A DNA stretch of 64,000 nt, taken from contig NZ_CP144374.1 in assembly GCF_040451425.1 (NCBI RefSeq), forward strand, positions 496,001 to 560,000, read 5' to 3'. The stretch is from Thermodesulfovibrio sp. 3462-1. GTDB lineage: Bacteria > Nitrospirota > Thermodesulfovibrionia > Thermodesulfovibrionales > Thermodesulfovibrionaceae. Positions 37,960 through 39,558 of this stretch are shown one piece after another (the first letter of the stretch is position 1; each line of letters begins with the position of its first letter). Under the pieces are notes generated by a model, which searched no databases, was not told the DNA's origin, and saw only the letters and a program-made list of their open reading frames with translations. A program made the translations under genes and the position numbers.

Positions 37960-37988
37960 TTGCGGTAAATATAGTTTTTTATTATAAT
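37960..37988 (+). promoter_or_regulatory. Promoter of the HDOD/AAA gene, -10 box 7 nt from ATG
   Basis: TTGCGG at 37960-37965 and TATAAT at 37983-37988 are 17 nt apart. Only seven bases separate the -10 from ATG 37996 and there is no Shine-Dalgarno sequence, so the transcript probably starts at or within a base or two of the start codon. Confidence 0.6.
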
Positions 37989-37995
37989 AAATGAG

Positions 37996-39558
37996 ATGAG
38001 TTTTCCTGTATTCAGGCATACAATTTCCAGATTTAGAGAGCTTTTGGAAGAAGGAGACCAAAAAATTTCTCAATTAATAAAATACGACCCTGTCATTGCC
38101 TATCTTATATTTCAGGAAGTTAACAAACCCTGCGGAAAAATAGAAATAACAAACTTTTCTCAGATGATAAACTATCTTGGTATAAAAAAAATTGAAGAAA
38201 TAATAATTCAAAGAGAACTTTTTCTTGAAAATGAAGACTTGTATATATGGATATATGGAATTTTGAGTGCTGAGATCTCAGCTTTGATATCAGAAAAATT
38301 TTCTCATATTCATCGTGATGAAGCATTTTTTACAGGATTGTTTCCCTGTCTTGGATTGCTTTTTATGACCAATGAATTTCCTAAATACAGAAGGATAATT
38401 CATTTTCTCATAAAACTTCCCTTAGAAGACAGGGTTTTTCTTGAAGAAAAAGTTTTTGGAACAAATCATATTGAAACTCTTAAAAGAAACATTATATGCC
38501 CTCCCTTTAAAGAAGTAGTGAATATTTTGAATAAAATGTTTCCGAAAGATGGAGTAAAAGATATAAAAACTCCTGTTCCACCTAAAGGCTCCACACTGCA
38601 AAGTTGCTATGATTTAGCATTACTTGCAGATCTTTCTGCATATGGTGCTCAGGCTTTGATGTTTCCTTCAGTTGTTGACAACAGGGAGTTATTCCTTGAG
38701 CTTGCGAAAAGATACTTCCGTATAAAGGAGTCTGATTCTCTTGAAATTCTTCAGAGTGTAATGGATAGATTCCTTTCCATTGCAAAGGAATTTAATGTAA
38801 TGGAAGAGCTCCAATTCTCCACTGAAACATTTTATCAGCTTAAACAATTCAGGTTTGAATCAAAGAACGCTGTTTTTGCTAATATGTTGAAAAATTTATT
38901 TGAAGAAAACGCTAAAGACAGGAACATATTTATTTATGGAGGACCAGCAGTGGGTAAAAGACTTCTTGCAGCAGCACTTTATACAGCTCAGGATAATCCT
39001 CGCAGAGAAAAACCATTTGTAATGATTTTTTGTGATATAGAAGAAGAAACTCTTGAAGAAGAATTTTTTGGAATAAAAGAAGGATATCTTGGAAAAAAGG
39101 GTAAAAGGGGAGTGCTAAAAAATGCAGAAGGAGGAACTCTTGTAATAAAAGAATTTGATCGAATGCCGATAAATTTTCAGAATAAACTTGAAAAAGCAAT
39201 TAGTTCTGGTAGGTTTTACAGAGTTGGTGACATAAACCCTGTTGAATTTCCTGATGTAAAATTTATCCTAATAGGGAAGGAAGATATAAGGGTGAAAGCA
39301 GCGCAGGGGGAATTTTCAAGCTCTCTTATTAAACTCATTAATCCTGTGTTTATTAGAATCCCTTCATTGAAAGAAAGAAGAGAGGATGTGTTTTACATAG
39401 CTGGTGAAATTGTTAAAAAATATAATCTCAATATTGAAGACAAACTTACACAACCAGAAATAGTTGAAAAATTTAAAACTGATCCATTCCCGAACAATCT
39501 GAGAGATTTAAAAAGATTTTTATTTCTTCTTTATATCCAGCGTCTTCTTAAATTTTAA
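37996..39558 (+). CDS. HDOD-domain protein with degenerate sigma-54-activator-like AAA domain
   Basis: A 520-residue protein. Residues about 10-190 resemble the HDOD signalling domain (LIKYDPVIAYLIFQEVN, ITNFSQMINYLGIKKIEEI, HRDEAFFTGLFPCLGLLFM). Residues about 295-515 align with NtrC-type AAA domains but are damaged. Walker A reads YGGPAVGKR, Walker B reads GGTLVIKEFDRMP (Lys in place of the catalytic Asp), and the GAFTGA loop that touches sigma-54 is replaced by GYLGKKGKRG. The sensor region IPSLKERREDVFYIA is still clear. No C-terminal helix-turn-helix is seen. It therefore probably does not activate sigma-54, and a scaffold or signalling role is more likely. Its last 39 nt overlap the convergent gene. 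Confidence 0.8.
   Translation: MSFPVFRHTISRFRELLEEGDQKISQLIKYDPVIAYLIFQEVNKPCGKIEITNFSQMINYLGIKKIEEIIIQRELFLENEDLYIWIYGILSAEISALISEKFSHIHRDEAFFTGLFPCLGLLFMTNEFPKYRRIIHFLIKLPLEDRVFLEEKVFGTNHIETLKRNIICPPFKEVVNILNKMFPKDGVKDIKTPVPPKGSTLQSCYDLALLADLSAYGAQALMFPSVVDNRELFLELAKRYFRIKESDSLEILQSVMDRFLSIAKEFNVMEELQFSTETFYQLKQFRFESKNAVFANMLKNLFEENAKDRNIFIYGGPAVGKRLLAAALYTAQDNPRREKPFVMIFCDIEEETLEEEFFGIKEGYLGKKGKRGVLKNAEGGTLVIKEFDRMPINFQNKLEKAISSGRFYRVGDINPVEFPDVKFILIGKEDIRVKAAQGEFSSSLIKLINPVFIRIPSLKERREDVFYIAGEIVKKYNLNIEDKLTQPEIVEKFKTDPFPNNLRDLKRFLFLLYIQRLLKF

Follow-up and report, generated by a model that had tools for sequence, protein, structure and literature searches.

Locus and gene organization

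The window analysed here is a 64,000-nucleotide stretch of the complete 1.82 Mb genome of Thermodesulfovibrio sp. 3462-1. It carries a gene encoding an HDOD domain fused to a sigma-54-activator-type AAA+ domain, and the features of this gene and its upstream region are listed in Table 1.

Table 1. Features of the HDOD gene and its upstream region. Positions count from the first nucleotide of the window.
Feature	Position	Strand	Remarks
Palindrome TTATTATAATAA with -10-like TATAAT, 7 nt before the ATG	37979..37990	+	TATTATA kept in orthologues
Whole ORF, HDOD and pseudo-sigma-54-activator protein	37996..39558	+	520 aa, ATG start; orthologues found
HDOD-fold domain, residues 1-254	37996..38757	+	Pfam HDOD 31.9 bits (cut-off 22.9); fold match MmoQ 3p3q
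Low-confidence linker, residues 275-281	38818..38838	+	pLDDT under 50
AAA+ domain of sigma-54-activator type, residues 286-520, ending without a DNA-binding domain	38851..39555	+	FleQ 5exs fold; Sigma54_activat
Walker A GGPAVGKR, residues 315-322	38938..38961	+	Lys321 kept in 39/40, Arg322 in 40/40
Loop 1 GIKEGYLG, residues 359-366, shortened GAFTGA remnant	39070..39093	+	Alignment with 13 activators of the same genome
Walker B TLVIKE, residues 381-386	39136..39153	+	Lys385 replaces Asp in 39/40
Sensor I position, residues 426-428, IGK instead of ATN	39271..39279	+	Alignments with activators of the same genome and 40 orthologues
Arginine-finger helix, residues 440-447, FSSSLIKL instead of FREDLYYR, both Arg lost	39313..39336	+	Alignments
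Lid motif FPNNLRDLKR, residues 498-507, sensor II Arg present in this copy	39487..39516	+	Columns of 40 sequences

The gene lies between a divergent mnmG and a convergent gene for a flippase-like protein in nearly all members of its family; three members, all of one genus, are located elsewhere. In most members the neighbourhood consists of mnmG, a glycosyltransferase gene and the flippase-like gene, and offers no functional hint. At their 3' ends the ORF and the flippase-like gene share 39 bases (39520-39558 of the window).

Between the divergent mnmG and the HDOD gene lies TTATTATAATAA, a perfect palindrome that contains a -10-like TATAAT on either strand. Its TATTATA core recurs 13-19 nt ahead of the start codon in each of the 37 orthologues with the mnmG neighbourhood, within flanking sequence that differs. 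This spacing suggests a transcription start at or beside the ATG, and hence a leaderless message. Judged from these motifs, TTATTATAATAA is probably a leaderless promoter, and may possibly act in both directions.

Distribution and conservation

Orthologues were identified in 40 genomes: every one of the 16 in the genus, and 24 that belong to one sister family. Within the genus the orthologues are full-length and 63-87% identical to the copy in the window, and identity is 31-40% in the sister family. A family profile was searched against 396 genomes of the phylum. Full-length matches (below 1e-199) came from these two families only, and the next level of matches (1e-52) represents the AAA part alone in ordinary activators; no HDOD-activator architecture outside the family was retrieved from the 396 genomes. 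The wider spread is thus judged on one phylum, and one contig scan reached close relatives only. Several sister-family genomes have lost or lack the gene. In one of these (G080) nothing stands between its two usual neighbours. In another genome (G086; L100 3689-4867), an unrelated ATPase-like gene on the strand opposite to mnmG fills the slot between the flippase-like gene and mnmG.

Where measurable, dN/dS is about 0.04-0.21 in both domains, ratios that are rough because of large synonymous distances but indicate purifying selection. The low dN/dS and the open frame in 40 orthologues rule out a decaying pseudogene. A gene-calling artefact or misassembly is ruled out by the presence of the same fusion in 40 genomes with conserved neighbours. 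A mobile or plasmid gene was likewise rejected, with no plasmid record covering 80% of the query and a syntenic locus. The gene is old, single-copy and strongly conserved. Retention of the fusion under strong selection in two related families indicates a real protein, probably a non-catalytic regulator.

Domain architecture

Both domains were recognized by Pfam above the cut-off, HDOD at residues 9-159 (E 1.2e-7) and Sigma54_activat at residues 292-451 (E 3.5e-22), with a weak match to the lid in the 520-residue protein. The Sigma54_activat profile is present in all 40 family members, and the HDOD profile matches 37 of them at E 0.01 or better. An AlphaFold2 model built with the 40 orthologues reached a pLDDT of 88.6 and a pTM of 0.85. 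Modelled alone, the HDOD part is closest to MmoQ (3p3q; Z 20.1 over 233 residues, 19% identity), followed by Cj0248 (Z 15.7) and other HDOD structures at Z about 10, among them SadB (Z 9.4). The HDOD fold, at residues 1-254, reaches well past the Pfam match, leaving no unexplained middle domain. The best fold match of the AAA+ part (about residues 281-520; residues 282-519 in the comparison) is FleQ (5exs; Z 25.0, rmsd 2.0, 231 residues), and residues 1-254 of the full-length model again match MmoQ. Pfam, the model and the fold comparison together confirm the proposal of the initial annotation that an HDOD domain is joined to an AAA domain of the sigma-54-activator type. The protein is a new domain pairing inside known superfamilies, with a clear pseudo-enzyme signature.

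The HDOD domain has lost its HD dyad. The position of the dyad is occupied by Pro-Cys (117-118) in this copy and mostly by Pro plus a variable residue across the 40 orthologues, and three other HDOD proteins of the same genome have His-Asp at this position.

Residues lost, retained and newly fixed in the AAA+ domain

Residue columns from the alignment of the 40 orthologues were set against 13 further activators encoded in this genome, which keep nearly all of the catalytic residues missing in the orthologues. The P-loop is largely intact: Gly320 is invariant and Lys321 is replaced once, by Arg. The odd Walker A noted in the initial annotation holds for this copy, but the family form, GExxVGKR, is nearer to normal and keeps the Gly and Lys; the oddity common to all members is Arg322, which replaces Glu. 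The activators of the same genome have Glu there in 11 of 13 cases and otherwise Ser or Thr. In FleQ, the P-loop Lys K180 and E181, the Glu at this position, are involved in bond polarisation and metal coordination (PMC10723142). The second basic replacement, the reported Lys for the Walker B Asp, was found as Lys385 (activators of the same genome: Asp 12/13, Asn 1/13). The adjoining Walker B Glu is drifting and kept in 13/40.

Other catalytic positions have also changed. The sensor I Asn is replaced by Arg, Lys or Gln in every orthologue, and the switch Asn by Phe, His or Tyr in 39/40. Of the two arginine-finger positions, which are Arg in 13/13 activators of the same genome, one is Ser in 36/40 and the second is drifting, mostly Leu, Val or Ala. 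The hydrophobic frame of the finger helix is retained (F440 35/40, L444 40/40). The sensor II Arg is also drifting and present in 21/40. Loop 1, two residues shorter than the GAFTGA loop in this copy, reads G-[FY]-x-G without Thr, while GAFTGA or GAFSGA occurs in 13/13 activators of the same genome; the claimed absence of GAFTGA is borne out, with a shortened remnant persisting. No profile match to a helix-turn-helix (HTH) was obtained, and each of the 40 members ends within about 30 residues of the lid motif, in agreement with the missing HTH described before. Each defect listed initially was thus found; absent from that list were the losses of the HD dyad, of the Asn residues at the switch and sensor I positions, and of the two arginine fingers.

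In PspF, hydrolysis requires the arginine fingers R162 and R168, Walker B residues D107 and E108, and the switch residue N64 (PMC12054792). Since all of the required residues except a drifting Walker B Glu are lost, ATP hydrolysis by the protein is very unlikely. Activators without HTH exist, such as FlgR and CtcC (PMC7175178), so that HTH loss alone is not decisive, and the remaining G-[FY]-x-G loop might be taken as a sign of a still-active sigma-54 activator of this kind with changed residues. Given the loss of the Walker B Asp, arginine fingers, sensor I Asn, switch Asn and GAFTGA threonine, this reading is hardly credible.

An odd activator was also observed at L084 1075-2004 (G000:C1, near 1147702), with Walker A Lys changed to Thr and Walker B Asp to Asn. 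It retains GAFTGA, the arginine fingers and the HTH, and may be a decaying copy, as its open frame has no N-terminal receiver.

Relation to flagellar genes

Downstream of the orthologue in one genome (G063; L051 6001-11318), the same strand carries a gene for a receiver-SpoIIE-HATPase protein and then fliL, fliM and more flagellar genes. A cyclic-dinucleotide effector controlling motility would fit this position a few genes upstream of fliL and fliM, and also the closest AAA fold, FleQ, which binds c-di-GMP. Expression of flagellar genes is influenced by two HDOD proteins, SadB and GsmR (PMC6543031). The Arg after Walker A, R185 in FleQ, is however lost, with Ala in 23/40 and mostly hydrophobic residues otherwise. 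Gene content argues against the motility reading: a 100% complete genome (G068) carries the gene but neither FlhA nor FliD, and two others (G064 and G079) have FlhA and no copy of the gene. FlhA carries the weight in this comparison, because the FliD search is insensitive in some genomes that do have FlhA. The earlier hint of a motility phenotype is therefore unsupported, a strict flagellar partner is disfavoured by G068, and a motility effector is very unlikely. c-di-GMP could still act on a non-flagellar target.

Proposed function

Read from the alignments and the model, the gene product is a two-domain protein without the residues for ATP hydrolysis, for the push on sigma-54 or for DNA binding by an HTH. 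The best reading is the one suggested earlier, namely that an ATPase activator became a signalling or scaffold module and lost catalysis, given that 40 orthologues under purifying selection lack the catalytic and sigma-54-contact residues. We propose, with a probability of roughly 0.4, that the protein is a soluble pseudo-ATPase regulatory adaptor with a pocket for a phosphate-rich ligand without Mg2+ and with ligand-dependent partner contacts. The AAA+ domain descends from a sigma-54 activator and is tied to the HDOD domain by the flexible linker. Its pocket probably binds a phosphate-rich ligand such as a nucleotide, and the ligand state would alter how the protein presents itself to a partner. 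The adaptor would work by contacting other proteins, among which may be a genuine sigma-54 activator.

A metal-free phosphate ligand, or an acidic partner, appears likely because the P-loop Lys is kept and both acidic metal-site residues are now fixed as basic ones. Selection on the basic pocket itself is suggested by the contrast between Gly320, Lys321, Arg322 and Lys385, which are kept, and the drifting Walker B Glu, sensor II Arg and second arginine-finger position. The conserved basic residues could nevertheless serve folding or an acidic protein partner instead of a ligand. The AAA part might even be a pure scaffold, a folded docking surface whose P-loop residues persist for stability with no ligand, as might be expected where the catalytic residues are all lost or drifting and only 21/40 members retain even the sensor II Arg. 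We consider this unlikely, since orthologues of the two families are only 30-40% identical to each other and yet hardly vary in the glycine-rich loop or at Lys321, Arg322 and Lys385, a degree of conservation beyond what folding alone seems to need.

The partner of the proposed adaptor may, more tentatively, belong to the sigma-54 or cyclic-dinucleotide network, as other HDOD proteins work in the regulatory pathways of FleQ and similar activators. SadB, itself an HDOD protein, binds c-di-GMP and has its place upstream of FleQ (PMC6543031). In one genome (G062), the adjoining genes on the same strand encode a histidine kinase and a genuine regulator of the NtrC type, and nearly all member genomes scanned carry rpoN. 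Descent, the SadB precedent and the G062 neighbourhood weakly suggest a link to the sigma-54 network. An alternative is a subunit poison or anti-activator, in which the pseudo-AAA domain would enter or cap a genuine activator ring and block it, with the HDOD domain setting the timing. In its favour, the AAA domain closely resembles in fold the activators that form rings (Z up to 25), the finger helix keeps its hydrophobic frame without the arginines, 13 genuine activators and a single sigma-54 are encoded in the genome, and the gene in G062 stands beside an activator operon; such a neighbourhood was however found in a single genome only, and we regard a subunit poison as rather unlikely. It is quite improbable that the family forms a class of metal-independent nucleotide receptors derived from a sigma-54 activator, which would be steered by HDOD, join or cap genuine activator rings and tune the sigma-54 regulon.

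A non-catalytic adaptor of the proposed kind would show a route from an AAA+ activator to a non-catalytic regulator. The fixed charge reversal at the metal site is concrete and testable, and the function should be reachable by deletion because the gene is old, single-copy and strongly conserved. The covalent link is a further point of interest, as HDOD and activator-type domains elsewhere meet only in pathways.

Comparison with known systems

In agreement with the initial annotation, no described protein with the HDOD and activator pairing was retrieved from Pfam, NCBIfam, PDB or the open-access literature searched. Searches of the literature likewise yielded no account of HDOD together with sigma-54, NtrC or Thermodesulfovibrio, and the sources searched yielded none of pseudo-ATPase sigma-54 activators missing Walker B, arginine fingers, GAFTGA and HTH together.

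Known proteins resemble it in part. FleQ of Pseudomonas aeruginosa, a sigma-54 activator and c-di-GMP receptor, shares the AAA+ fold and the regulatory AAA domain. FleQ has Walker B, an arginine finger, ATPase activity, and REC and DNA-binding domains, whereas the protein described here has an HDOD domain and a Walker B with Lys, and possesses neither an arginine finger nor an HTH. MmoQ, an HDOD response regulator of Methylococcus capsulatus, is the closest solved fold of residues 1-254, but its solved structure has no AAA domain and its identity is only 19%. FlgR and CtcC likewise have an AAA activator domain without a DNA-binding domain. They are two-component regulators classed with active activators (PMC7175178), unlike this protein, which has neither the catalytic residues nor GAFTGA. 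SadB of Pseudomonas likewise has an HDOD domain and is non-catalytic, and it belongs to a pathway leading to a sigma-54 activator (PMC6543031). SadB has a YbaK-like domain and stands genetically upstream of FleQ, whereas here an inactive activator-type domain is part of the same chain.
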